Below, piece after piece: positions 18,011 to 57,808 of a stretch of 64,000 nt of DNA (positions are counted from its first letter, which is position 1; every line of letters begins with the position of its first letter). This DNA comes from Paenibacillus sp. EZ-K15 (GTDB lineage: Bacteria > Bacillota > Bacilli > Paenibacillales > Paenibacillaceae), in the NCBI RefSeq assembly GCF_002573715.1, contig NZ_PDHM01000012.1, positions 435,368-499,367 of the forward strand, written 5' to 3'. A program made the translations under genes and the position numbers. Under the pieces are notes generated by a model. The model ran no database searches. It worked only from the letters and a program-made list of their open reading frames with translations, and was not told the DNA's origin.

Positions 18011-19312
18011 GTGTTTGATTTAAAAGCTAACGGGACCTCGGTTAAGACAGAAGTTGTTGCCGGGGCGACGACGTTTTTCACGATGGCGTATGTGACAGTT
18101 GTGAATCCGCTGATTCTGTCACAAGCGGGTGTGCCTTTTGAGCAGAGCTTCACGGCTACTATTATTGCCGCTGTGATTGGTACACTGCTGATGGGGCTCG
18201 TAGCCCGCTATCCGATCGCTGTCGCACCGGGGATGGGCTTGAATGCCTACTTCACCTATTCCGTTGTTCAAGGACATGCCGGACTTGGGTATATTGAAGC
18301 TTTCTCGGCCGTTTTTATAGCCGGTATTCTGTTTCTGGTGTTATCGATGACTTCCCTGCGGCGCAGGCTGATCGAGATGATCCCGGCGAATTTGAAGCAT
18401 GCGATCACGGTCGGAATCGGCTTGTTTATTGCTTTTATCGGTCTGCGCATGAGCGGCATCATTACAGCGCATCCGGACAATCTGGTAGCGCTCGGTGATC
18501 TGCACCAGCCATCGGTTGTGCTTGCCTTGGTAGGACTTGCGGTTACGCTTGTGCTGCTGTCGCGCGATGTGAAGGGTGCCTTGTTTATCGGGATGATTAT
18601 TACCGGGATTATCGCTTATTTTGCCGATATGCTGTCTTTTACGAACGGGATTATGTCGCTTCCCACGTTACCGGAAGGCATTCTGGTATGGAACCCGATT
18701 ACCGCTGCCTCGGATGTGATCAGTCATGGACTCTATGCTGTTGTGTTCTCGTTCCTCCTGGTGACCCTGTTTGATACCACAGGTACGGTAGTTGGTGTGG
18801 CAGAACAGGCGGGGCTAATGAAGGATAACAAGCTGCCTCGTGCGGATCGTGCCATGTTCTCCGATTCGGTGGCAACCGTGGCCGGATCCATGGTCGGTAC
18901 AAGCCCGACCACCGCTTATGTTGAATCTGCAGCCGGCGTCGGTGCAGGCGGTCGGACAGGATTAACGGCGGTCGTCGTTGCCGCATTGTTTGTGGTTGCT
19001 GCCTTCTTCAGCCCGCTGATCGGCGCGGTTTCCGGGTTATCCGCCATCACCGCACCTTCGCTCATCGTAGTGGGTTGCCTGATGCTAAGCAATGTTCAGC
19101 ATATCCGGTGGAATGATTTTGATGAAGCGTTCCCCGCGTTTCTCGTGATCTTGACCATGCCGCTTACGTCCAGCATCGCGACTGGGATCGCGCTCGGTTT
19201 TATCTCATATCCGCTGATGAAAATCGTGAAGGGCAAGTGGAAGGCGGTTCACCCGCTGATGTATATTTTTGCTGTGCTGTTCGTACTGCAGCTTGTCTTT
19301 GTCCCGCATTGA
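18011..19312 (+). CDS. pbuO: NCS2 family purine permease (PbuO/PbuG-like)
   Basis: The gene encodes a membrane transporter of the AzgA subfamily of NCS2, importing guanine or hypoxanthine by proton symport. The 433 residues contain about 12-14 hydrophobic helices, the family motif APGMGLNAYF near residue 75, and FDTTGTVVGVA and GTSPTTAYVESAAGV in the substrate region. Sequence resembles B. subtilis PbuO more than PbuG. GTG 18011 follows GGAGG by seven bases; the ATG at 17993 has no ribosome site. I looked for a purine riboswitch upstream and found none. Confidence 0.88.
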   Translation: MFDLKANGTSVKTEVVAGATTFFTMAYVTVVNPLILSQAGVPFEQSFTATIIAAVIGTLLMGLVARYPIAVAPGMGLNAYFTYSVVQGHAGLGYIEAFSAVFIAGILFLVLSMTSLRRRLIEMIPANLKHAITVGIGLFIAFIGLRMSGIITAHPDNLVALGDLHQPSVVLALVGLAVTLVLLSRDVKGALFIGMIITGIIAYFADMLSFTNGIMSLPTLPEGILVWNPITAASDVISHGLYAVVFSFLLVTLFDTTGTVVGVAEQAGLMKDNKLPRADRAMFSDSVATVAGSMVGTSPTTAYVESAAGVGAGGRTGLTAVVVAALFVVAAFFSPLIGAVSGLSAITAPSLIVVGCLMLSNVQHIRWNDFDEAFPAFLVILTMPLTSSIATGIALGFISYPLMKIVKGKWKAVHPLMYIFAVLFVLQLVFVPH

Positions 19313-19329
19313 TTCAGGAGCATTAGAAG

Positions 19330-19379
19330 CATGACAATCCCCTGCAAGGTCTAAGGAGACCCGGCAGGGGATTGTCATG
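19330..19379 (+). terminator. Long perfect hairpin after pbuO (possible terminator)
   Basis: A 16-base arm starting CATGACAATCCCC is repeated as its exact reverse complement at 19364-19379. The loop itself can pair GGTC with GACC. No T-run follows, so it is either an atypical terminator or an mRNA-stabilising hairpin. Confidence 0.5.
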
Positions 19380-19509
19380 TCGATAAACCCGCGTATAAGC
19401 TTAAACATTGTTTGTGCACGGATCGAGAAATGCTGCAACGGCTACAAGTTGTTAATTTTCGCCCGGTTAAAGGGACATGCCTTCTTATGGCCGTGTAGAT
19501 GCACCGAGC

Positions 19510-20130
19510 TTAGCGAGTTCGGCTCCATACGTCCGCGTACCTCGTGACGAGGCCGTGCTCGTCAACCTCCAGATCCGCTTGATAAGCTCCATTGTTACTC
19601 TCATAAAGGTAGGCATACTCGCTCGTACGCGTATATTGTTGGGCAAGGGGGGCGATGGTTAGACTCGGGAACTGAATCCAGACTGCCGTCATGGACGCGC
19701 TCTGACCAGGCTTCAGCTTCAAGCGTCGAATCGGGAGCGTGTTGGTGGATGGGGTGATCCCTAGATCAATGTCGGTCATACCAGCAAATGCTGTAAGCTC
19801 GGTATTGCCGTTCCACCAGTGACCATCATCATCCCGCTCCAGGTGAAGGGACCGTTCTTCCGTGCCGCTTGTGAGCTTAATCTTTACCATCCGGGTCTGC
19901 CAGCTGCTGGTGGTTTCAACCTCATAGGAGCAGTGGAGCTGCCGGCCTTCCAGGCTGGCTACGACCGTTCCGGTGAGCGTAAATCCTTCATGATGCTGAT
20001 AGAGCCGGCCATGCTCCAGGGAAGGAAGATCGTGCCTGTTCCATAGCAGCGATTGCAGAAGCTGACCTGGGCTTGAGGTCTTTTGTCCGATGGGCTGTTT
20101 GTCTGCTTCAGCATGGATATGGTCGTTCAA
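19510..20130 (-). CDS. Putative glycolipid-binding domain protein (DUF1089/PF06475)
   Basis: The 206-residue soluble protein matches the 'putative glycolipid-binding' family, whose fold resembles lipoprotein localisation factors but whose role is unknown. Recognisable features are WNRHDLPSLEHGRL near the N-terminus, the W-TR segment (SSWQTRMV), and the hallmark TPSTNTLPIRRLKL near residue 130. Translation likely starts at TTG 20130, with AAAGGA about 12 bases upstream on the minus strand. A LexA/DinR-type box lies in its upstream promoter region at 20193, so DNA-damage control is possible. Confidence 0.8.
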   Translation of the reverse strand: MNDHIHAEADKQPIGQKTSSPGQLLQSLLWNRHDLPSLEHGRLYQHHEGFTLTGTVVASLEGRQLHCSYEVETTSSWQTRMVKIKLTSGTEERSLHLERDDDGHWWNGNTELTAFAGMTDIDLGITPSTNTLPIRRLKLKPGQSASMTAVWIQFPSLTIAPLAQQYTRTSEYAYLYESNNGAYQADLEVDEHGLVTRYADVWSRTR

Positions 20131-46590: not shown

Positions 46591-46661
46591 TAAGTTATAC
46601 GAAGGACGGCACATTGATTCCCCAATCATTGTCATTCAAGCAGAAGGAGTTGAACTGTCCT

Positions 46662-49600
46662 ATGAAACGAAAGTCGGGGCTGAAGTTCTTCAAGAGGATG
46701 GAAAGCTATTCTGACAATTGGTCCGTTCTGGAGGAGAAAAGCAGGGAATGGGAAGATATGTACCGCAAGCGCTGGTCGCATGACAAAGTGGTACGGACGA
46801 CGCATGGCGTGAACTGCACAGGCTCCTGCAGTTGGAAGGTTTTCGTCAAGAACGGAATCATCACTTGGGAAAATCAGCAGATTGATTATCCTTCCTGCGG
46901 GCCGGATATGCCGGAATTCGAACCGCGCGGATGCCCGCGTGGAGCTTCATTTTCCTGGTATGAATACAGTCCGCTGCGAGTGAAATACCCTTATATGCGC
47001 GGCAGGCTATGGCATATGTGGAAAGAGGCCTTAAGCCAACACAGCGATCCGATCGCCGCTTGGGCCAGCATCGTCGAAGATCCGGAGAAATCCGGGTCCT
47101 ATAAACAAGCACGGGGTAAAGGCGGTCATGTCCGTGTGTCCTGGCAGGAGGCCACGAAGCTGATCTCCGCGCAGCTCATTTATACGATCCGCAAATACGG
47201 GCCCGACCGGATTGCCGGGTTTACGCCCATTCCGGCCATGTCGATGATCAGCTATGCATCAGGAGCCAGATTTATTTCCCTGCTTGGTGGAGAAATGCTC
47301 AGCTTCTATGACTGGTATGCGGACTTGCCGCCGGCATCTCCACAAATCTGGGGAGAGCAGACGGATGTGCCGGAATCCAGCGATTGGTACAATGCCGGTT
47401 ACCTTATTATGTGGGGCTCGAACGTGCCGTTAACTCGCACGCCGGATGCTCACTTCATGACAGAAGTTCGATATAAAGGCACCAAGGTCGTGTCGGTCGC
47501 GCCGGATTATGCCGAGAACGTCAAATTCGCCGACAACTGGCTGGCTCCGAACCCCGGAACCGATGCCGCAATTGCACAGGCCATGACGCATGTTATCTTA
47601 AAAGAATTCTATCATGAGCGTCAGGAACCGATGTTCCTGAATTATGCGAAACAATATACGGATATGCCTTTCCTCATTCTATTGGATGAGTTTGAGGGAG
47701 GATACAAGGCGGGACGCTTCCTGCGGGCAAGCGATCTAGGCGATACCACGCAGCATGCCGAGTGGAAGCCGGTGATTATCGACGAGAACACCAATGAAAT
47801 CACGGTTCCGAACGGCACGATGGGACAGCGCTGGGAGCAGGACAAGAAATGGAACCTGATCCTGGAGCGCGAGGACGGCTCGGTCATTGCGCCGGCGCTG
47901 TCCGTGGAGCCTCAGGGTGGGGAGCTACAGACGATTTCCTTCCCGTTCTTCGATAACAACGCCAACGGCACCTTCGAACGCCATATTCCGGCGAAGACCA
48001 TTCAGCTGGCGGACGGGACGCAGCGTCTGGTGGTAACGGTATACGATCTGATGCTGAGCCAATATGGCATTGGACAGGCAGACAGCGGGCTGGATGCAGA
48101 CGGATATAAGAATGCCGACTCCTTCTATACCCCGGCCTGGCAGGAAAAAATCACGGGTGTGAAGCCATCCATCGTGGTTCAGATTGCCCGGGAGTTTGCG
48201 CAGAATTCGCTGGAAACCGGCGGTCGCTCGATGATCATCATGGGCGCCGGGATTAACCACTGGTTTAACAGTGACACGATCTACCGTTCCATTTTGAATC
48301 TGGTCATTCTAACGGCGTCCCAAGGCGTAAACGGCGGTGGCTGGGCGCATTACGTTGGCCAGGAAAAATGCCGCCCGATCGAAGGCTGGTCTACGGTTGC
48401 CTTCGCTAAAGACTGGCAGGGACCGCCGCGTCAGCAAAACGCGACATCGTTCTTTTATTTTGCGACCGACCAATGGAAGTACGAAGAAATGGGAGCCGAT
48501 TCTCTGAAATCGCCAACGGGCGGGGAGATCCGTTACCAGCATCCGGCGGATTACAATGTGCTTGCCGCGAGACTTGGATGGCTTCCATCTTACCCGCAGT
48601 TTAACAAAAACAGCCTGAAGTTTGCGGAGGAAGCAGCGCAGCAGGGGAAAACCACCCATGAGGAAATTGTGAAGCATACGCTTGCGCAAATTATCTCTGG
48701 AGAGACCCGGTTTGCGGCAGAGGATCCGGGTGCGCCGGAAAATTATCCGCGTTCGCTGTTCGTATGGCGCTCGAATCTGATTTCGAGCTCCGCCAAGGGT
48801 CAGGAATATTTCATGAAGCATTTACTGGGCGCTTCGGACAGCCTGCTCTCGACGCCGAATGAAGAGGATAAGCCGGAAGAAATGGTCTGGCGCGAAGAAG
48901 TCGAAGGCAAGCTGGATCTGCTTGTTGCCTTGGACTTCCGGATGACATCAACTCCGATGTACGCGGATGTAGTCCTTCCTGCAGCAACCTGGTATGAGAA
49001 AACGGACTTATCTTCAACCGATATGCATCCTTTTGTGCATCCGTTTAATCCGGCAGTGGATCCCCTCTGGGAATCCCGGTCGGACTGGGATATATACCGA
49101 ACGATTGCCGAAGTTTTCTCAGACATGGCGAAGACCCATCTTCCGGGAATATATAAGGACCTGGTCACAACACCGCTCTCTCATGACTCCATAAGCGAGA
49201 TCGCCCAGCCATATGGTGAAGTGAAGGATTGGCGCAAGGGGGAGATTGAGGCCGTACCTGGCAAAACGATGCCGAATTTGACGGTGGTCGAGCGGGACTA
49301 TACGAAAATTCACGACAAATATATTACGCTCGGTCCGAACCTGGCTACAGGTAAAGTCGGAGCGCATGGCGTCAGCTTCTCGGTCGCCGAGGAGTATGAA
49401 GAGCTGAAGCGTTTGAACGGAACTTATTATGACGACACCATCAAGAATGGCCTGCCCAAACTTCATACGGCACGAAATGCGGCGGACGCCATTTTGAATC
49501 TGTCTTCGGCCACGAATGGCAGGGTATCGCAGCGAGCCTGGGAATCGGCGGAGCAAGACACCGGCGTGCAGCTGAAAGACATTTCCGCGGACCGCGCCGC

Positions 49601-50336
49601 AGAGCGCATCACGTTCCAGAGCATCACGGCCCAGCCGCGGGAAGTCATTCCGACGCCGGTATTCAGCGGATCGAACAAAATGGGCAGAAGATACTCCCCG
49701 TTCACAACGAATATTGAACGGCTTGTGCCGTTCCGTACGCTGACCGGCAGACAGCATTTTTATATCGATCACGAAATTTTCCTGCAGTTTGGAGAGGCGC
49801 TGCCGGTGTATAAACCGACGCTTCCGCCAATGGTGTTCGGACCGCGCGACAAGCAGATTACCGGGGGAAAGGATACACTCGTGCTCCGATATCTGACGCC
49901 GCATGGCAAATGGAACATTCACAGCACCTATCAGGATAATCTGCACATGCTGACGCTGTTCCGCGGAGGACCGACAGTATGGATTAACAACGATGACGCA
50001 GCGGCTCACGACATTCAGGACAACGATTGGCTGGAAGTATACAACCGCAACGGCGTCGTCACCGCCCGCGCCGTCGTCAGTCACCGGATGCCGAAAGGCA
50101 CGATGTACATGTATCACGCGCAGGATAAACACATCAACGTGCCGGGCTCGGAAATTACGAAGGATCGCGGCGGCAGCCACAACGCGCCGACGAGAATCCA
50201 TGTGAAGCCGACCCAGATGGTTGGGGGCTATGCACAGCTCAGCTATGGATTTAACTACTACGGACCGATCGGCAACCAGCGGGATGTGTACGTGGCTGTC
50301 CGCAAAATGAAAGAGGTGGATTGGCTTGAAGATTAA
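46662..50336 (+). CDS. narG: Respiratory nitrate reductase alpha subunit
   Basis: NarG is the catalytic subunit reducing nitrate to nitrite with a bis-MGD molybdenum cofactor on the cytoplasmic side of the membrane. The 1224-residue length fits B. subtilis NarG. The N-terminal FS0 cluster ligands are His48, Cys52, Cys56 and Cys91 with the exact family spacing. The segment WGSNVPLTRTPDAHF carries the Mo-ligand Asp region. ATG 46662 follows AAGGAG by 12 bases. It leads narGHJI. Confidence 0.97.
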   Translation: MKRKSGLKFFKRMESYSDNWSVLEEKSREWEDMYRKRWSHDKVVRTTHGVNCTGSCSWKVFVKNGIITWENQQIDYPSCGPDMPEFEPRGCPRGASFSWYEYSPLRVKYPYMRGRLWHMWKEALSQHSDPIAAWASIVEDPEKSGSYKQARGKGGHVRVSWQEATKLISAQLIYTIRKYGPDRIAGFTPIPAMSMISYASGARFISLLGGEMLSFYDWYADLPPASPQIWGEQTDVPESSDWYNAGYLIMWGSNVPLTRTPDAHFMTEVRYKGTKVVSVAPDYAENVKFADNWLAPNPGTDAAIAQAMTHVILKEFYHERQEPMFLNYAKQYTDMPFLILLDEFEGGYKAGRFLRASDLGDTTQHAEWKPVIIDENTNEITVPNGTMGQRWEQDKKWNLILEREDGSVIAPALSVEPQGGELQTISFPFFDNNANGTFERHIPAKTIQLADGTQRLVVTVYDLMLSQYGIGQADSGLDADGYKNADSFYTPAWQEKITGVKPSIVVQIAREFAQNSLETGGRSMIIMGAGINHWFNSDTIYRSILNLVILTASQGVNGGGWAHYVGQEKCRPIEGWSTVAFAKDWQGPPRQQNATSFFYFATDQWKYEEMGADSLKSPTGGEIRYQHPADYNVLAARLGWLPSYPQFNKNSLKFAEEAAQQGKTTHEEIVKHTLAQIISGETRFAAEDPGAPENYPRSLFVWRSNLISSSAKGQEYFMKHLLGASDSLLSTPNEEDKPEEMVWREEVEGKLDLLVALDFRMTSTPMYADVVLPAATWYEKTDLSSTDMHPFVHPFNPAVDPLWESRSDWDIYRTIAEVFSDMAKTHLPGIYKDLVTTPLSHDSISEIAQPYGEVKDWRKGEIEAVPGKTMPNLTVVERDYTKIHDKYITLGPNLATGKVGAHGVSFSVAEEYEELKRLNGTYYDDTIKNGLPKLHTARNAADAILNLSSATNGRVSQRAWESAEQDTGVQLKDISADRAAERITFQSITAQPREVIPTPVFSGSNKMGRRYSPFTTNIERLVPFRTLTGRQHFYIDHEIFLQFGEALPVYKPTLPPMVFGPRDKQITGGKDTLVLRYLTPHGKWNIHSTYQDNLHMLTLFRGGPTVWINNDDAAAHDIQDNDWLEVYNRNGVVTARAVVSHRMPKGTMYMYHAQDKHINVPGSEITKDRGGSHNAPTRIHVKPTQMVGGYAQLSYGFNYYGPIGNQRDVYVAVRKMKEVDWLED

Positions 50337-51861
50337 GGCACAAGTCGCCATGGTCATGAATCTGGATAAATGCATTGGCTGCCATACGTGCAGCGTCACC
50401 TGCAAGAGCACCTGGACGAACCGTCCGGGTGCGGAATATATGTGGTTCAACAACGTGGAAACGAAGCCGGGCGTAGGCTATCCGATCCGCTGGGAAGACC
50501 AGGAGAAATACAAGGGAGGCTGGACGCTGAAAAAGGGGAAGCTGCAGCTGAAATCCGGCAGCAAGCTGTCCAAAATCGCGCTCGGCAAAATCTTTTACAA
50601 TCCGGATATGCCGGAAATGAAAGATTACTATGAGCCGTGGACTTATAACTATGAGCATCTAACGAATGCCGGAGAGAAGAAGCATCAGCCGGTGGCCCGT
50701 CCGAAATCGGCGGTAACCGGCGAGACGATGAATCTGGAATGGGGTCCGAACTGGGAAGATGATCTGGCAGGAGCCCATGTGACCGGCCCGAAGGATCCAA
50801 ATATCGAAAAGATCGAGGAAGAAATCAAGTTCAACTTTGAGCAGGCATTCATGATGTATCTGCCCCGACTGTGCGAGCATTGCCTGAATCCGAGCTGCGT
50901 AGCGTCCTGTCCTTCAGGTGCCATGTACAAGCGGGATGAAGACGGCATCGTACTGGTAGACCAGGAAGCCTGCCGCGGCTGGCGGTACTGCATGACGGGC
51001 TGTCCGTACAAAAAGGTGTATTTCAACTGGAAAACAAATAAAGCCGAGAAATGCACCTTCTGTTTTCCGAGAATTGAAGCCGGGCTGCCTACGGTATGCT
51101 CCGAAACCTGTACAGGACGTATCCGATACTTGGGCGTGCTGCTGTACGATGCCGACAAGGTACAGGAGGCAGCCTCCACGCCGGATGAGAAGGATCTCTA
51201 TCAGGCCCAGTGCGATCTGTTCCTGGATCCGCATGATCCGGCAGTGATCGAGCAGGCGCGCAAGGACGGATTAACCGAAGAATGGATCGAAGCTGCCCAA
51301 AACTCGCCCGTATATAAACTGGCCATTGAGTACAAGCTGGCCTTTCCGCTCCATCCGGAGTATCGGACGCTGCCAATGGTTTGGTACGTACCACCGCTCA
51401 GTCCGATCATGAACTATTTTGAAGGCAGGAATTCGATCGAGAATCCGGACATGATTTTCCCGGCGATCGAGGAGATGCGTACACCGATTCAGTATCTCGC
51501 GAATCTGCTCACGGCAGGGGACACGGTTACGGTGAAAGATGCCCTGCAAAAAATGGCGATGATGCGTTCTTATATGCGCGCGCAATCGTCGGGGACTGAG
51601 TTTGATGAGACACGGCTAGAACGGGTTGGGTTGACCGCCCATCAAATGACGCAGATGTATCGGCTGCTCGCTATCGCTAAATACGATGACCGGTTTGTGG
51701 TCCCGACTTCGCATAAAGAAAGCCATATGGATGTTTACCGTTCACAGGGCTCCGAAGGCTTTAGCGCAAGCTGCGGCGGCTGCGGTCCGGAAGGACTGCA
51801 GGGCAAAACAGGCAAAGAGCTGTACGAAGAAAACTTCTACGGGGGGATCTGGCGTGATTAA
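50326..51861 (+). CDS. narH: Nitrate reductase beta subunit (iron-sulfur)
   Basis: NarH passes electrons through four Fe-S clusters from NarI to NarG. The 511-residue protein has cysteine groups CIGCHTCSVTCKSTW near residue 16, CEHCLNPSCVASCPSG near 185, CRGWRYCMTGCPYKK near 217 and CTFCFPR...CSETCTGR near 245; the Trp in CRGWRYC marks the [3Fe-4S] site. The TTG start at 50326 follows AGAGGTGG and overlaps the end of narG. Confidence 0.96.
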   Translation: MKIKAQVAMVMNLDKCIGCHTCSVTCKSTWTNRPGAEYMWFNNVETKPGVGYPIRWEDQEKYKGGWTLKKGKLQLKSGSKLSKIALGKIFYNPDMPEMKDYYEPWTYNYEHLTNAGEKKHQPVARPKSAVTGETMNLEWGPNWEDDLAGAHVTGPKDPNIEKIEEEIKFNFEQAFMMYLPRLCEHCLNPSCVASCPSGAMYKRDEDGIVLVDQEACRGWRYCMTGCPYKKVYFNWKTNKAEKCTFCFPRIEAGLPTVCSETCTGRIRYLGVLLYDADKVQEAASTPDEKDLYQAQCDLFLDPHDPAVIEQARKDGLTEEWIEAAQNSPVYKLAIEYKLAFPLHPEYRTLPMVWYVPPLSPIMNYFEGRNSIENPDMIFPAIEEMRTPIQYLANLLTAGDTVTVKDALQKMAMMRSYMRAQSSGTEFDETRLERVGLTAHQMTQMYRLLAIAKYDDRFVVPTSHKESHMDVYRSQGSEGFSASCGGCGPEGLQGKTGKELYEENFYGGIWRD

Positions 51862-52432
51862 TCTCGGAATGCTGCATGATTATAAACATGTTTTCGGTTT
51901 TTTCGCTCAGCAGCTCACGTATCCGGAAAAGCTGGATTTCCATCCGTCGGTCATGGAGGAGTCGCTTGGCTCCTCAGACCCGGCCTATGAATCAGTCAGA
52001 ATGTACTGGACGGCCATGCATGAATACAGCATGGAAGAGATTGAAGAGCTGTATGTCCAGACCTTCGACTTTCAGGCGAAATCTACATTGTACATGACCT
52101 TTTATAAATTTGAGGATGGCCGGGAACGTGGCCAGATGCTCGCCAAACTTAAAGAGACGTATGAGATGTTTGGCCTGGGCATCGAGGGCTCGGAATTATC
52201 GGATTATCTTCCGCTGATGTGCGAGTTCATATATGCGGCGAATTGGCAGGGTCGCGAGAAGGAAGTGGCAGCGAGCCTGGATTTGATGATGGCTGTAATG
52301 GAAGACGGCACCTATCATCTGCTAAAAGCTTTGGAGAAGTATAAGAGTCCGTATCTTTATCTCATTCAAGGTCTGCGTGAGACGTTCAAAGCATGTTTCA
52401 ATCAGGAGGCGGCAGATCATGAGCATGGTTAA
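51854..52432 (+). CDS. narJ: Nitrate reductase assembly chaperone
   Basis: NarJ is a TorD-family chaperone needed for cofactor insertion and membrane docking of NarGH. The 192-residue helical protein has the core YVQTFDFQAKSTLYMTFYKF near residue 70 and LPLMCEFIYAA near 120. GTG 51854 overlaps narH by eight bases and follows GGGGGGAT; the frame is open further upstream, but only inside narH. Confidence 0.92.
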   Translation: MINLGMLHDYKHVFGFFAQQLTYPEKLDFHPSVMEESLGSSDPAYESVRMYWTAMHEYSMEEIEELYVQTFDFQAKSTLYMTFYKFEDGRERGQMLAKLKETYEMFGLGIEGSELSDYLPLMCEFIYAANWQGREKEVAASLDLMMAVMEDGTYHLLKALEKYKSPYLYLIQGLRETFKACFNQEAADHEHG

Positions 52433-53111
52433 TCAGTTTCTGTGGGTCATCTTTCCTTATATCTGCCTTGCTGTGTTTATTGTCGGTCATATTTACCGTT
52501 ACCGTACAGACCAATTCAACTGGACGGCAAAATCCAGCGAGTTTATCGAGAAGAAACATCTCAAGCTGGGCAGTCTCATGTTTCATTTAGGCATCATACC
52601 GGTTATCGGGGGTCACGTCGCAGGCTTGGCCATCCCTCAATCCTGGATGGAGTCGCTGGGCATCAGTGATCATATGTACCACATCGGGGCGGTGTATATC
52701 GGAAGCGCATTTGGCTTTCTAACCCTGGCAGGTATGGTATTGTTAACAGCCAGGCGGTTCACCATTCGAAATGTGCGAAAACTGAGCAGCGCTTCCGATA
52801 TGATGGTTAATGTCCTCCTGCTGTTTATCGTATTTATGGGGATGTACAGCACGCTGGTTACGAATGCGGTACAGCCGGAATTCAATTATCGGGAGTCGGT
52901 CTCCGTGTGGTTCCGTGGATTGTTTATGCTCCGTCCGGATGCTTCGTTGATGTTGAATGTGCCGCTATCGTTTAAAATTCACATTTTGGCCGGATTTGGC
53001 ATTTTTGGCTTATGGCCGTTTACCCGATTGGTGCATGTGTGGAGTGTTCCGTTGAATTATGTGGGTAGAAGATATATCCTGTATAGAAAGCACCGTAAAT
53101 TTGAATCGTAG
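52419..53111 (+). CDS. narI: Nitrate reductase gamma subunit (diheme cytochrome b)
   Basis: NarI takes electrons from menaquinol and anchors NarGH in the membrane. The 230-residue protein has five membrane helices. The heme-ligand histidines fall at His56, His66, His187 and His205, the same numbers as in E. coli NarI. ATG 52419 follows AGGAGG by nine bases and overlaps narJ by 14 bases. Confidence 0.96.
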   Translation: MSMVNQFLWVIFPYICLAVFIVGHIYRYRTDQFNWTAKSSEFIEKKHLKLGSLMFHLGIIPVIGGHVAGLAIPQSWMESLGISDHMYHIGAVYIGSAFGFLTLAGMVLLTARRFTIRNVRKLSSASDMMVNVLLLFIVFMGMYSTLVTNAVQPEFNYRESVSVWFRGLFMLRPDASLMLNVPLSFKIHILAGFGIFGLWPFTRLVHVWSVPLNYVGRRYILYRKHRKFES

Positions 53112-53142: not shown

Positions 53143-53162
53143 ACGTCAGAGGAGTAATGGAA

Positions 53163-53627
53163 ATGAAGAATCAGCCGATCTTTAACTACCAAAGTGAAAT
53201 GGATAAGCTTCGTGCCCGGTTTCAATTCGATTTCGTGTCCATGGCATTGGTGCAGCCGGCTGAAGACCGATTTGTATTAACCTGGCAGTATGCCTCGGGA
53301 AATATAAACGAGAGGTATAAGCGCATCGTTTTACATTCCGGCAAAGGCATCGCCGGCATGGTGTTTAAGACAGGAAAGCCGATGCTGATTCAAAACGTGA
53401 ATGCTGATATTGAATCAAGGGACTTGTATAATTATCCGATTATCGTTGCCGAGCAGTTGAAGAGCCTTGGCGCAGTACCCCTGTGGGAAGGCTCTCGCGT
53501 CAAGGGGGTTTTGCTTGTTGGATATCGCAAGGAAAACGTGCTGGATCCAAAGTCCTTTGAGTCGTTTCAGGAAGGAATAGGAACGGAATTTGGTGCTTTT
53601 TATGCCAAGGAGGTATCACAGCCTTGA
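53163..53627 (+). CDS. nreA: Nitrate receptor NreA (GAF domain)
   Basis: In Staphylococcus NreA binds nitrate and, when empty, inhibits phosphorylation of NreB. The 154-residue protein is a single GAF domain, with SGKGIAGMVFKTGKPMLI around residue 60 and LKSLGAVPLWEG around 105. ATG 53163 follows GAGG by eight bases; ATG 53157 is too close to it. The stop overlaps nreB, which supports function in one sensory complex. Confidence 0.88.
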   Translation: MKNQPIFNYQSEMDKLRARFQFDFVSMALVQPAEDRFVLTWQYASGNINERYKRIVLHSGKGIAGMVFKTGKPMLIQNVNADIESRDLYNYPIIVAEQLKSLGAVPLWEGSRVKGVLLVGYRKENVLDPKSFESFQEGIGTEFGAFYAKEVSQP

Positions 53628-54706
53628 TTCAGATGACGGATGAGCATTTAAGCGAATTGCTTAGAAACATGTATCATAATAGCATGGAAGCTATTTTTTT
53701 TATTGATGAAAAGGGCAGCGTGGTGGCTATGAATCCGGCCGCAGAGGACATTCTTGACATTGAAGTGATCGAGAGGATGCAGTCTGGTACGGATGGCTCC
53801 TTCTGCCAAACCTGCAAAGGGTACACCGATGATCAGGATCTCATAACCTGCTCCACATGCTATCTGGATTATCCGGATGGCGAGTTTTCGTCGTTCCAAG
53901 TCTATCTTAAGACACGCGGCGAAGGAATCGTTCCCTATGCGGCCAGTTACCATATCATCGATGAAGCTCGCGGCATCCGGGTGATGATGCTCCTCGATCT
54001 GACGAAGCAGCAGAAGACGCAGGAAATGCTGCAGCGGACGAATATGCTGAAATATGTCATCAAGGCACAGGAGGACGAGCGCAAGCGGATATCCCGCGAA
54101 CTGCATGATAGCGTGGCTCAAGAGCTATTGAGTTCACTGGTCGACCTGCGTGTCGTTAAATATATGAATGTAGGCGAGGATGTGCTACAAAAGCTGCACC
54201 AGACCGAGGTGTCTTTAACCAGGCTTCTGGATGATATCCGTCATTTATCCGTTGAACTCAGGCCGGCTTCATTAGATGATTTGGGGCTTGAGGCTGCCTT
54301 CCGCTCCCATTTTAAATGGATCGGGAAGAATTATGGTATGCTGGTTGAATTCTCTGCCGAGTTAGCGGCAGCCCGCTATGGCAGCGAGATTGAAACGGTT
54401 GTGTACCGGGTTTGCCAGGAAGCGGTGCTGAATGCCATGAAATATTCAGGAACGGATGAGGTGCATGTACGATTATGCGAAGTGAATGGCTATCTTCAGT
54501 TAACCGTCCGGGACCTTGGAGTCGGGTTTAACAAAGTCATAGATGAAGCTAAGGGAACCGGACTGGGACTGTATGGGATGCGGGAACGCGCAGAGCTCGT
54601 TGGTGGTCAGTTTATTTTGCTATCCGCTCCCGGTGAGGGTACAACGATTCAGCTTAACATTCCGCTTACGAATGGTGACGACAAGCCGGAGGTGATGATT
54701 ACATGA
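53624..54706 (+). CDS. nreB: Oxygen sensor histidine kinase NreB (PAS, Fe-S)
   Basis: NreB senses oxygen through a [4Fe-4S] cluster in a PAS domain and phosphorylates NreC. The 360-residue protein has Cys61, Cys64, Cys76 and Cys79 (CQTC-x11-CSTC), the same spacing as S. carnosus Cys59/62/74/77, and His161 in the HisKA_3 box [12 protein letters not shown], again offset by two from S. carnosus His159. A C-terminal HATPase domain carries [14 protein letters not shown]. It starts at TTG 53624 after AAGGAGG and overlaps both neighbours. Confidence 0.95.
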
Positions 54707-55350
54707 AAATTGTGATTGCGGATGATCATGCCGTGGTCCGCAGCGGATTTTCCATGATTCTGAATTACCAGGAAGATATGGAGGTCGTCGCGACGGCGGC
54801 AGACGGTATGGAGGCTTACACCATGGTGGCGAAGCACCGGCCGAATGTGCTGTTGATGGATTTAAGCATGCCTCCCGGCGAAAGCGGACTGATTGCAACC
54901 GGCAAGATCAGCAGTGAATTTCCGGAAACGAAAATTCTGATTCTAACCATGTATGATGATGACGATTACCTGTTTCATGTTTTAAAAAACGGTGCCTCAG
55001 GTTACGTACTGAAAAATGCGCCGGATGATGAATTAATCTCCGCCATCCGCATGGTGCATAAGGGAGGGACCTATATCCATCCCCAGATGGCTACTTCCCT
55101 GGTTCGGGAGTTTATTAAGAAAGATAGCGAGAGCGCGGACCAAGATCCGTTTAACAGTCTGTCCAAACGGGAGATTGAGATCCTGCCCCTGATCGCCAAG
55201 GGTTATGGCAATAAGGAGATTGCGGAAAAACTTTTTGTATCGGTCAAGACGGTGGAAGCGCACAAGGCCAAAATTATGGACAAGCTGAATTTGAAAAGCC
55301 GCCCGGAGTTAGTGGAATATGCATTGAAGAAAAAATTGCTGGATTTTTAG
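54703..55350 (+). CDS. nreC: Nitrate/oxygen response regulator NreC (LuxR type)
   Basis: NreC activates nitrate respiration genes when phosphorylated by NreB. The 215-residue protein has a receiver domain with DD7-8, phospho-acceptor Asp53 ([10 protein letters not shown]) and Lys105-region, then a LuxR-type helix-turn-helix (about 150-210) with [15 protein letters not shown] and [15 protein letters not shown]. It overlaps nreB by ATGA. Likely targets are the dyads before narG and narK. Confidence 0.94.
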
Positions 55351-55396: not shown

Positions 55397-55465
55397 AATA
55401 GGGAAGTTCCCCGGAGAGATTCAGGGAACTTCCCTATTAGCATTGTGAATAGGTGCACGTACAAT
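55397..55465 (+). promoter_or_regulatory. Candidate NreC sites and narK promoter
   Basis: A 15-base arm AATAGGGAAGTTCCC is inversely repeated at 55424-55438 with 12 bases between. Each arm also holds its own dyad (GGGAAGTTCCC, GGGAACTTCCC), like the NreC consensus described in staphylococci. TACAAT at 55460-55465 is a good -10, 25 bases after the second CCC, placing the site near -42. The hairpin could also terminate nreC transcription, although its T content is low. Confidence 0.55.
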
Positions 55466-55516: not shown

Positions 55517-57031
55517 ATGATCAAAAAGCTGCAGCTTCCGCTGCAAACAATGAATCTGGTGCTTGGCTTTATGGTATGGGTCATCATCTCCGCGCTCCTG
55601 CCGTTTATTCGAGAGGATATCTCCATTCCGGCAGATCGGCTCGCTATTCTGACGGCTATTCCGGTGGTGCTGGGTTCGGTCCTCCGGATTCCGCTTGGCT
55701 ATTACGCCAATGTGGTGGGAGCACGAATTGTTTTTATCGTCAGCTTTATCCTGCTGCTGTTTCCGGTTTATTTTATCAGCTCGGCTTCATCCTTTACGCA
55801 TTTGGTCATCGGTGGCTTGTTTCTGGGGATCGGAGGGGCTGTGTTCTCGGTCGGTGTTACCTCATTGCCTAAATACTATGCGAAAGAAAAGCTAGGACTC
55901 GTAAATGGGATTTACGGGATGGGCAACATTGGCACCGCCATTACCACGTTTGCTGCACCGGTCATCGCGACTCAGATCGGATGGTCCAAAACCGTCCAGC
56001 TGTATTTAGTTCTGCTGCTGATATTTGCCGTGCTGAATGCACTCTTAGGTGACCGCAAAGAAATCAAGGTGAAGACACCGATTATGGAACAGATCAAGGG
56101 TGTATATAAAAATGAAAAACTGTGGTTTTTCTCTCTGTTTTATTTCATTACATTCGGTTCGTTCGTAGCCTTTACGGTGTACTTGCCGAACTTCCTGGTT
56201 ACCCATTTTGAGCTTGCGAAGGTGGACGCCGGGATGCGGACGGCAGGGTTCATTTTGGTAGCCACTTTATTACGTCCTGTAGGCGGCTGGCTTGCAGATA
56301 AATTTAAACCGCTGTTCTTATTAATGGGCGTATTCATAGGGCTCACGGCTGCGGCCATCCTGTTGGCATTCTCTCCGTCCATTGGCTTGTATACGGCCGG
56401 ATGCTTAACCATTGCCGTTGGTGCCGGTCTCGGAAACGGGGTTATTTTCAAACTCGTGCCCCTTTATTTCAACAAGCAGGCCGGCATTGTGAACGGTATC
56501 GTGTCCATGATGGGCGGCCTTGGCGGATTCTTCCCGCCGCTGATGCTTTCCTTTATCCATTCGGCTACGGGGCAGTATTCCATTGGATTCATGGCCTTAT
56601 CGCAGGTTGCGCTTGCCAGTTTCGTTATTGTGGTATGGATGTACTACCAGGACAAACTTTCCGTGCAATCCGAGGTGTTTAACTCCACCGGCCAGGGGAT
56701 TCTGGTTACGGATCCGAACGGTAGGATCAATGCCGTCAATCCGGCATTCACGAAGTTAACCGGATATTCGGAGGAGGAAGTGCTCGGCAAAAATCCGAGC
56801 GTATTGAAGTCCGGAAGACAATCACCGGCGTTTTATCAGGCGATGTGGTCTGAAATCAGGGAACACGGGAGCTGGCAGGGGGAGATTTGGAACCGCCGGA
56901 AAGACGGGGAAGAGTACTTGGAGCTGCTGACGATTAATTCGGTAAAGGACGAGTCGGGTGACATCGTGCAATATGTGGGTACCTTCAGCGATATTACTTA
57001 TCATCCGCCTGGCCGTTGTTCGAATGACTGA
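55517..57031 (+). CDS. narK: NarK-type nitrate/nitrite transporter fused to a C-terminal PAS domain
   Basis: The 504-residue protein has two parts. Residues about 1-375 form a 12-helix MFS transporter of the nitrate/nitrite porter family, with the two nitrate signatures (GIYGMGNIGTAIT near 135; GAGLGNGVIFKLVPLYF near 305) and the substrate arginines in VLRIPLGYY and LLRPVGGWLAD. Residues about 381-495 form a PAS domain (TGQGILVTDPNGRINAVNPA, LTGYSEEEVLGKNP, ending VGTFSDIT). No kinase or GGDEF output follows; the chain ends nine residues later. ATG 55517 follows AAAGGTG by six bases. Confidence 0.92.
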   Translation: MIKKLQLPLQTMNLVLGFMVWVIISALLPFIREDISIPADRLAILTAIPVVLGSVLRIPLGYYANVVGARIVFIVSFILLLFPVYFISSASSFTHLVIGGLFLGIGGAVFSVGVTSLPKYYAKEKLGLVNGIYGMGNIGTAITTFAAPVIATQIGWSKTVQLYLVLLLIFAVLNALLGDRKEIKVKTPIMEQIKGVYKNEKLWFFSLFYFITFGSFVAFTVYLPNFLVTHFELAKVDAGMRTAGFILVATLLRPVGGWLADKFKPLFLLMGVFIGLTAAAILLAFSPSIGLYTAGCLTIAVGAGLGNGVIFKLVPLYFNKQAGIVNGIVSMMGGLGGFFPPLMLSFIHSATGQYSIGFMALSQVALASFVIVVWMYYQDKLSVQSEVFNSTGQGILVTDPNGRINAVNPAFTKLTGYSEEEVLGKNPSVLKSGRQSPAFYQAMWSEIREHGSWQGEIWNRRKDGEEYLELLTINSVKDESGDIVQYVGTFSDITYHPPGRCSND

Positions 57032-57082
57032 AGATATGAATCATGATGGGTATGAGTCGATGGATTGGAGAGGGAGAGACGC

Positions 57083-57808
57083 ATGAAAAAGACGAGGATT
57101 GTCATCCCACGGGAGCATGGTGGCTGGGCCATGGTCAGTGTACCCTATTTCATAGGAATGGCGGCAGCCAAGCCGGTTCTGCTGCACCTTCTGCTATTTT
57201 TGGCCTGGTTATGTTTATACATGGCGTCCTATCCGTTTCTGCAATCCTTAAAGAAGACGTCCCAACGTAAAACTTGGATATCCTGGGGGATCGTTTATGC
57301 CCTTGTCGCCGCCCCGTTTCTGATTCCGGTGCTTGTCTTCAAACCGTCGATGCTCTGGTTTGCACCTGTGCTGCTCATCCTGATCATGGTGAATGTTTGG
57401 CATGTCCTTCAGAAAGCGGAGCGTGCGCTGTTAAATGATATTTGCGCGATTCTGCTGTTCTGTACCGGCGGCGCTGCTGCTTATATGCTGGGGGGCGGTG
57501 GTTTCGATCCGATGCTTGCCGCCGTCGTTGTGTATAATTTCCTATATTTCACGGGCACCGTGTTCTTTGTCAAATCGGTCTTCCGTGAGCGGAAAAACAG
57601 GCGCTGGACGATATACGCAAGAATATATCATGCCGTCATGTTGGTACTGCCGGTAGTCTTCGGGAATCCATGGATGTGTCTGCCATTCCTATTTCCGTTC
57701 ATCAAGACCTTACTGTATTCCGGAAAAGCAATGAAACCGATGAAGGTCGGAATGATCGAGATTGTGGGTTCCGTCCAGTTTTTATTGCTGTCAATGATCT
57801 TGATGTAG
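57083..57808 (+). CDS. ywiC: YwiC-like membrane protein
   Basis: The 241-residue protein has about seven to eight membrane helices and starts with the family motif PREHGGWAMVSVPY, typical of the YwiC-like proteins. In B. subtilis ywiC lies among narK, fnr and narGHJI, so its place after narK here repeats that association, but its biochemical role is unknown. ATG 57083 follows AGGGAGAG. Confidence 0.85.
   Translation: MKKTRIVIPREHGGWAMVSVPYFIGMAAAKPVLLHLLLFLAWLCLYMASYPFLQSLKKTSQRKTWISWGIVYALVAAPFLIPVLVFKPSMLWFAPVLLILIMVNVWHVLQKAERALLNDICAILLFCTGGAAAYMLGGGGFDPMLAAVVVYNFLYFTGTVFFVKSVFRERKNRRWTIYARIYHAVMLVLPVVFGNPWMCLPFLFPFIKTLLYSGKAMKPMKVGMIEIVGSVQFLLLSMILM

Follow-up and report, generated by a model that had tools for sequence, protein, structure and literature searches.

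In this study, we showed that a NarK-type carrier encoded downstream of the respiratory nitrate reductase genes of Paenibacillus sp. EZ-K15 ends in a PAS domain, and that this PAS domain, which is kept in many relatives, is under purifying selection. The carrier may be adjusted in cis by a flavin-type PAS domain responding to the redox state, a reading to which we give a probability of about 0.4. The window, i.e. the whole stretch of 64,000 nucleotides that was analysed, contains the gene at the following position.

55517-57031, + strand: narK-PAS, an open reading frame of 504 aa (stop included), with the start placed as in relatives and with Pfam matches to MFS_1 and PAS

The longest open reading frame at this locus begins with GTG at 55445, and the ATG at 55517, with AAAGGTGAT just before it, is the start that agrees with the relatives. 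The encoded protein was divided into two parts.

55517-56641, + strand: NarK-type MFS domain, residues 1-375 (TIGR00886; phmmer matches 4iu8, 4jr9 and 4u4t; fold match 4u4w)
56672-56998, + strand: PAS domain, residues 386-494 (Pfam; PDB relatives MmoS 3ewk and NifL 2gj3)

In the Pfam search of the 504-aa protein, MFS_1 scored 163.3 bits (residues 15-339), PAS_9 72.8 bits (residues 393-494) and PAS 60.7 bits (residues 387-493), all above the gathering scores. No output domain was found by Pfam after the PAS and no kinase domain in the chain, so the protein is not a carrier and kinase in one chain of the CbrA type. The first-pass annotation had described an in-frame fusion of a 12-helix NarK to a PAS with no output domain, which was borne out by the open reading frame, Pfam and the fold matches; it had also placed the PAS close to the stop codon, and ten residues indeed separate the two. 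The extent given there for the domain, residues 381-495, was too wide, since it takes in the end of the linking helix and Pfam places the domain at 387-494; the domain itself stands.

Judged by its sequence, the carrier part is a NarK-type respiratory nitrate/nitrite carrier. TIGR00886 was the best NCBIfam model for it, with 208.7 bits, below the cut-off of 311.7. By phmmer (E up to 0.001) its solved relatives were NarU and NarK alone (4iu8, 4jr9 and 4u4t), and the first nine matches of a fold search with the structure model were NarK or NarU chains, NarK 4u4w among them. R57 and R253 were aligned to arginines of NarU, presumably the substrate-binding arginines of TM2 and TM8, and are invariant in 138 of 138 sequences. 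The NarK2 variants R58S and R259S were reported to be effectively inactive (PMC3445494, excerpt). Elsewhere in the same 7.26-Mb genome, the second-best match to NarK-PAS was 25% identical and ended at residue 383.

A protein search for the NarK and PAS architecture, proposed in the first-pass annotation, was carried out and its distribution was mapped. In the genus sample, PAS-bearing matches (reaching residue 493 or beyond) were present in 58 of 100 genomes, the own genome included, with 59 matches by hand count; 74 genomes had a match, and the remaining 16 had matches only at 31-34% identity, ending by residue 405. NarK-PAS was found in 56 of the 348 genomes of the class sample, belonging to 10 family codes (hand count). 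The family sample gave a match at 1e-70 in 106 of 245 genomes, with PAS-bearing and PAS-less proteins pooled, and the phylum sample any match at 1e-80 in 7 of 398 genomes, all of the same class and with at most three candidates scored per genome. The named relatives nearest at the gene were mostly Paenibacillus. At the named loci, the PAS was present in all of the best 80 of 480 relatives, a set that was ranked by similarity to a PAS-bearing query and is thus biased towards the PAS; among the genera of these best 80 are Paenibacillus, Sporosarcina, Planococcus, Shouchella, Cytobacillus, Metabacillus and Thalassobacillus.

Of six alphaproteobacterial matches reaching residues 441-453, one was opened. 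This match, from Paracoccus seriniphilus, is a 906-codon MFS gene adjoining a nitrate reductase alpha gene; it was read as a double NarK, whose extension we do not regard as a PAS. A Bacilli-type narK-PAS is present in records with the names Arthrobacter and Pseudomonas, and a Shouchella copy is 87% identical to that of the window (L106, L152 and L081 for the three together). These copies may be due to contamination, mislabelling or gene transfer.

A chance fusion or an assembly error has a negligible probability. The PAS was found in every one of the 16 relatives at 88-99% identity, and with this check of close relatives a sequencing artefact, already doubted in the first-pass annotation, was ruled out. 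The fusion also recurs in independent genomes, including single-contig ones, and the selection acting on the PAS argues in the same direction. Median dN/dS was 0.051 for the PAS (maximum 0.139) versus 0.029 for the MFS part over the 43 pairs that passed the filters on identity and dS. The identities of the two parts climb together (Spearman 0.82, over pairs that are not independent of each other). The 138 distinct PAS-bearing sequences, taken from rows longer than 480 aa, are 494-517 aa in length, which leaves no room for an output domain after the PAS.

PAS-less relatives exist at 75-78% identity over the carrier part. When a tree was built from the carrier sequences only, by a quick method and with long branches present, its 86 rows (58 PAS-bearing, 28 PAS-less) required at least 10 label changes, of which 5 are forced by well-supported branches. 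The PAS-less rows are mostly nested in PAS-bearing groups, and outside these groups are only four outgroup rows and L189. The likeliest history suggested by the carrier tree is one early gain of the PAS followed by repeated losses. The small-genome f10 group, which we take to resemble staphylococcal NarT, is possibly among the losses, its placement being one without a support star on the tree. The PAS match of L177 stops after residue 436, perhaps because the domain is being lost or because the sequence contains an error. Because several transporter groups kept the operon but lack the PAS, the PAS is not essential for transport.

The genes upstream of narK-PAS in the window are as follows.

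46614-53111, + strand: narGHJI, the respiratory nitrate reductase genes (open reading frames)
53157-53627, + strand: nreA, a GAF nitrate sensor (NF038250, 155.1 bits, below the cut-off of 175)
53624-54706, + strand: nreB, a histidine kinase with its own Cys-rich PAS (HisKA_3, HATPase_c and PAS_8; Cys read in the translation)
54703-55350, + strand: nreC, a response regulator (Response_reg and GerE)

The gene order is thus narGHJI, nreA, nreB, nreC, narK-PAS and a YwiC-like gene. Among the best 80 of 480 loci, narGHJI and nreABC were located upstream of narK-PAS in 63; the other 17 were divided into narGHJI without nreABC (2, L111 and L136), a different molybdenum oxidoreductase (13) and cuts by contig ends (2). 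For the YwiC-like gene, which encodes a membrane protein directly 3' of narK-PAS (window 57065-57808), a match accompanied the complete narGHJI-nreABC cluster in 31 of the same 80. A third arrangement was observed on a Niallia taxi megaplasmid (L252:845-11479), with narK-PAS on the opposite strand to narGHJI-nreABC. In many relatives a hemerythrin-domain gene lies between narI or nreC and narK-PAS (L136:9416-9949), and none was seen in the nreC-narK interval of the window.

The first-pass annotation had also proposed that the PAS could link the carrier to the NreB/NreA complex, and the gene order weakened this proposal. The nreABC genes are directly upstream, with narGHJI kept, in 11 PAS-less orthologues (L158-L168), and L111 and L136 have NarK-PAS with no nreABC nearby, from which it follows that the PAS and NreABC come and go independently. 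An NreA/NreB partnership was rejected on these loci as the reason for the PAS, and a lineage-specific link is possible. Six genomes were searched for NreA, and three gave none, namely those of L111 (a metagenome bin, which may be incomplete), L136 and L137 (Metabacillus crassostreae). The best NreB-like matches in these three genomes were 35-40% identical, over the kinase core only.

Two elements were located in the gap between nreC and narK-PAS.

55397-55438, + strand: perfect 15-bp inverted repeat (fold z-score -4.59; present in relatives)
55444-55459, + strand: candidate FNR/CRP-like box, TGTGA-N6-GCAC, between the hairpin and narK-PAS (read by eye in the sequence)

Each arm of the repeat is itself palindromic (GGGAA-N-TTCCC), and by eye the repeat is nearly unchanged in 10 of 12 relatives and altered in two (L088 and L099). 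It may act as a terminator, as two sites for a regulator, or in both ways. The motif TGTGA-N6-GCAC, which we take to be FNR/CRP-like, has TGTGA-N6-TCACT at the same place in L081, and this candidate box hints at a separate anaerobic promoter for narK-PAS. The sequence TAGGG-N4-CCCTA, assumed to be the NreC-like box, was not detected near narK; the 64 kb gave two one-mismatch matches, and as many were obtained in 26 of 100 shuffles.

The junction of the two protein parts was examined in an AlphaFold2 model.

56579-56686, + strand: predicted continuous helix, residues 355-390, from TM12 into the PAS (AlphaFold2 model)

The model of NarK-PAS, made with 70 sequences, had a mean pLDDT of 89.6 and a pTM of 0.77. 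The TM12 helix is predicted to be unbroken up to the PAS start (residues 355-390), with pLDDT values of 94, 90, 80 and 91 in blocks of ten across residues 361-400, and an earlier model from nine sequences (mean pLDDT 71.9) had the same helix at 354-390. A continuous helix between TM12 and the PAS is expected if carrier and PAS communicate.

In a single-sequence search of the PDB, the nearest relatives of the PAS were MmoS 3ewk and NifL 2gj3, both FAD redox sensors, and the earlier suggestion of a redox-sensing type is supported by them. Using a 12-sequence profile, MmoS was found at 5.5e-35 and two NifL sequences at 1.4e-23 and 2.8e-23, with LOV domains next, and Aer, also an FAD-PAS, at 1.5e-11, behind many LOV domains. 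The aligned stretch of 9qq6, labelled 'histidine kinase', is identical to that of NifL 2gj3. In NCBIfam, DibA (probably also the family of PA0285, by our assumption) was the best and NifL the second model for the window PAS, and both were matched by 12 of 12 sequences. The own genome contains 16 PAS_9 matches. The NarK PAS, itself one of the sequences behind the family profile, scored 195.6 bits with this profile, compared with 35.6 for the next domain. Two residues of the domain were considered in particular.

56846-56848, + strand: W444, Trp on helix F-alpha (NifL W87 by alignment count), in 138 of 138 sequences and within helix 437-450 of the model
56891-56893, + strand: N459, putative flavin-binding Asn (NifL N102 by alignment), in 138 of 138 sequences

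In the own genome, three other distinct PAS domains were aligned across the W444 and N459 positions, with the Trp and Asn in none of them, and the rest aligned less far. The helix F-alpha Trp was described as the primary determinant of FAD binding in FAD-PAS domains, and the Asn as conserved in two (4 and 14) of the FAD-PAS clusters 4, 9 and 14 and as the second determinant there (PMC10468136, excerpt). W70 and N85 of Aer touch FAD (PMC9668731, excerpt), and FAD binding of AxDGC2 and RmcA was abolished by changing the Asn (PMC12540587, excerpt). Both FAD-PAS marks, the Trp on F-alpha and the Asn, are thus present in NarK-PAS as W444 and N459.

The flavin-lining residues of NifL are S39, E70, N102, Y110 and H133 (PMC12540587, excerpt). 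With positions counted on the single-sequence alignment, N102 and Y110 are kept in the window PAS (N459 and Y467), and S39, E70 and H133 are replaced by L396, P427 and F490. Y467 is Tyr in 68 and Phe in 5 of 73 sequences; of 138 sequences, all have P427 and 137 have F490. At the E70 and H133 positions, NifL and MmoS differ from each other too. PAS2 of PA0285, which has the Trp and the Asn, showed no FAD binding by thermophoresis (PMC10874727, excerpt). Binding of a flavin (FAD) by the NarK PAS thus seems likely, although the three differing NifL pocket residues and PA0285 count against it.

No Cys was found in residues 386-494 of the translated window protein, and among 73 sequences (residues 376-494) neither a Cys nor a His is conserved, the commonest His being present in 13 of 73 at one position. 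Sensing of blue light in the LOV manner was rejected because the window PAS has no Cys and P427, presumably the position of the LOV photoactive Cys, is Pro in all 138 sequences. Fe-S sensing of the NreB type was rejected on the missing Cys in the window PAS and the lack of a conserved one in the 73 sequences, and heme sensing on the lack of a conserved His in the same set.

The best explanation of these results is redox control in cis, with the flavin-type PAS adjusting the respiratory nitrate carrier. The PAS on the cytoplasmic end of the carrier would read the reducing power of the cytoplasm, probably via bound FAD; the signal would travel along the unbroken helix joining TM12 to the PAS and would shift the conformational cycle or the oligomeric state of the carrier. 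Nitrate uptake would be favoured in a reduced cell (no oxygen) and restrained in an oxidised cell. In this scheme we infer that FAD is bound, which way the effect runs and that the carrier is gated at all. The cis reading is supported by the conservation of the fusion, the purifying selection, the invariant Trp and Asn, the absence of a conserved Cys or His and the predicted helix, and also by the two NarK-PAS loci with no nreABC nearby. Against it stand the changed flavin-pocket residues, the PA0285 result, DibA as the nearest family model, the low rank of Aer in the profile search and the PAS-less groups that kept their operon. NarK2, with 12 membrane spans, has a reported oxygen shut-off and no PAS in its description (PMC3445494, excerpt), so a PAS would be one solution and is not needed for oxygen shut-off. 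Feedback on the carrier from its substrate or product, through a PAS that binds a small ligand other than flavin (nitrate, nitrite or an organic acid), is distinctly unlikely. The Leu, Pro and Phe at three flavin-pocket positions of NifL, the PA0285 PAS2 that bound no FAD with the same Trp and Asn, and the nitrate sensor NreA encoded in the same operon are in its favour. Against it, FAD is present in the solved relatives nearest to the PAS, and among many variable positions the two with the strongest connection to FAD do not vary. Lower again we place a PAS that dimerises or stabilises the protein and senses nothing. Dimers are common among PAS domains and an output domain is absent here, but a pocket signature invariant in 138 sequences is hard to explain by dimerisation alone, and other NarKs have no PAS.

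In the molybdenum-oxidoreductase loci a second gene order was observed. The cluster at L150 (4900-15218) opens with genes for a membrane protein (weak NarI-like match), a molybdopterin oxidoreductase, an Fe-S protein, a Rieske protein and a 117-aa protein, and continues with narK-PAS, a sensorless kinase, a regulator, a GAF protein and a multi-PAS kinase. From the oxidoreductase on, the set recurs in L138, L142, L144, L145, L148, L149, L151, L152, L154, L156 and L157. Such a cluster may be an uncharacterised reductase system for nitrate or another oxyanion. In genome G440, two narK-PAS genes (L176:12362-13870 and 18242-19747) flank the sensorless-kinase cluster, and a third copy, on another contig, is PAS-less.

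This gene order bears on a possible, if doubtful, alternative to cis control, a transceptor acting in trans. There the carrier, through its PAS, would supply the input to a separate histidine kinase and so inform gene control of redox state or transport flux. Of the 13 molybdenum-oxidoreductase loci, 12 have directly after narK-PAS a gene for a histidine kinase of about 216 residues, in which HisKA_3 and HATPase_c are present and a sensor domain is absent (domain content determined for L150, other loci assigned by similarity). In 11 of the 12, matches to the regulator, the NreA-like GAF protein and the multi-PAS kinase come next (L157 is cut by a contig end, and in L142 the match to the multi-PAS kinase is partial). 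No such kinase is adjacent at four loci where narK is PAS-less or PAS-broken and stands beside the same oxidoreductase genes (L169, L170, L175 and L177); L170 shows only about 2.2 kb 3' of narK before the contig end, and L175 lies in G440, which has the sensorless kinase elsewhere, beside its two NarK-PAS genes. The association of PAS and sensorless kinase gave a Fisher p of 0.002, uncorrected for kinship, many of the 12 being close Cytobacillus relatives. No kinase more than 40% identical to the sensorless kinase was found in G120, G228 and G350, for which no full-length NarK-PAS is listed. On the other hand, the narK-PAS of L137 has no sensorless kinase in its flanks, and G393 has the sensorless kinase (47%) but nearby only a 28% NarK-like match ending at residue 381; by these two cases, the sensorless kinase as a universal partner of NarK-PAS was rejected as a rule. 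Also against trans signalling, NreB has its own PAS in the window-type order, where the PAS-less orthologues keep nreABC, and L111 and L136 lack nreABC nearby. The NreB-like kinase cores in the genomes without nreABC may provide a kinase partner there, which counts against the cis reading. The second gene order is a lead for trans signalling, short of proof, and a kinase-coupled role suits it at least as well as cis gating.

A wider reading would join both roles: a large Bacilli clade of nitrate carriers would be redox-gated in cis by a flavin PAS, and in one sub-lineage the same PAS would be the detached sensor of the sensorless kinase, a single carrier then controlling uptake and gene expression. 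We regard this as rather unlikely. Reports that oxygen and redox state control respiratory nitrate uptake go back to the 1980s (papers cited in PMC3445494, excerpt), and in the NarK2 work the control point was the transporter, with the mechanism given as unknown (PMC3445494, excerpt). If true, cis gating by a flavin PAS would be a direct molecular answer to the oxygen shut-off of respiratory nitrate uptake, and NarK-PAS may explain how some bacteria lower nitrate uptake under oxygen. Since the suspected sensor domain is separable and close PAS-less relatives provide natural controls, the question is directly testable. A redox PAS on a transporter, and not on a kinase, a cyclase or a chemoreceptor, would be an unusual case.

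In the open-licence literature, no description of a NarK ending in a PAS was found. NarK, PAS and a fusion of carrier, PAS and kinase (CbrA) are known already, and within that literature a NarK ending in a PAS is a new variant. With NarK, NarU and NarT (MFS, TIGR00886; NarK 4u4w, NarU 4iu8), the window protein has in common the fold, the nitrate-operon setting and the two helix arginines; the solved members have no PAS, whereas the window protein has one and scores below the TIGR00886 cut-off. MmoS PAS-A and NifL PAS1 are the nearest PDB relatives of its PAS by profile and have the same Trp and Asn. In MmoS, NifL and Aer, however, the PAS acts on outputs of the kinase type or of chemotaxis, while the window PAS is on the end of a carrier and has three of the five NifL pocket residues changed. 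The nearest family model is that of the DibA-type GGDEF/EAL enzymes, and the PAS of a Cupriavidus PAS-GGDEF-EAL-like protein (L251, domains read by eye) is 54% identical, with the same Trp, Asn, Pro and Phe; in DibA-type enzymes the PAS stands ahead of a c-di-GMP enzyme, whereas in the window it closes a transporter. CbrA of Pseudomonas (SLC5-STAC-PAS-kinase) likewise joins a carrier and, after it, a cytoplasmic PAS in a single chain, but its carrier is of another family and it has STAC and its own kinase, both absent from NarK-PAS (PMC13022988, excerpt). The KCNH potassium channels are likewise membrane transport proteins with a PAS of flavin lineage, and a flavin-analogue drug binds this PAS and modulates the channel (PMC10468136, excerpt); they are, unlike NarK-PAS, eukaryotic, and their PAS belongs to a LOV-like cluster in which the polar flavin residues are replaced by hydrophobic ones (PMC10468136, excerpt).
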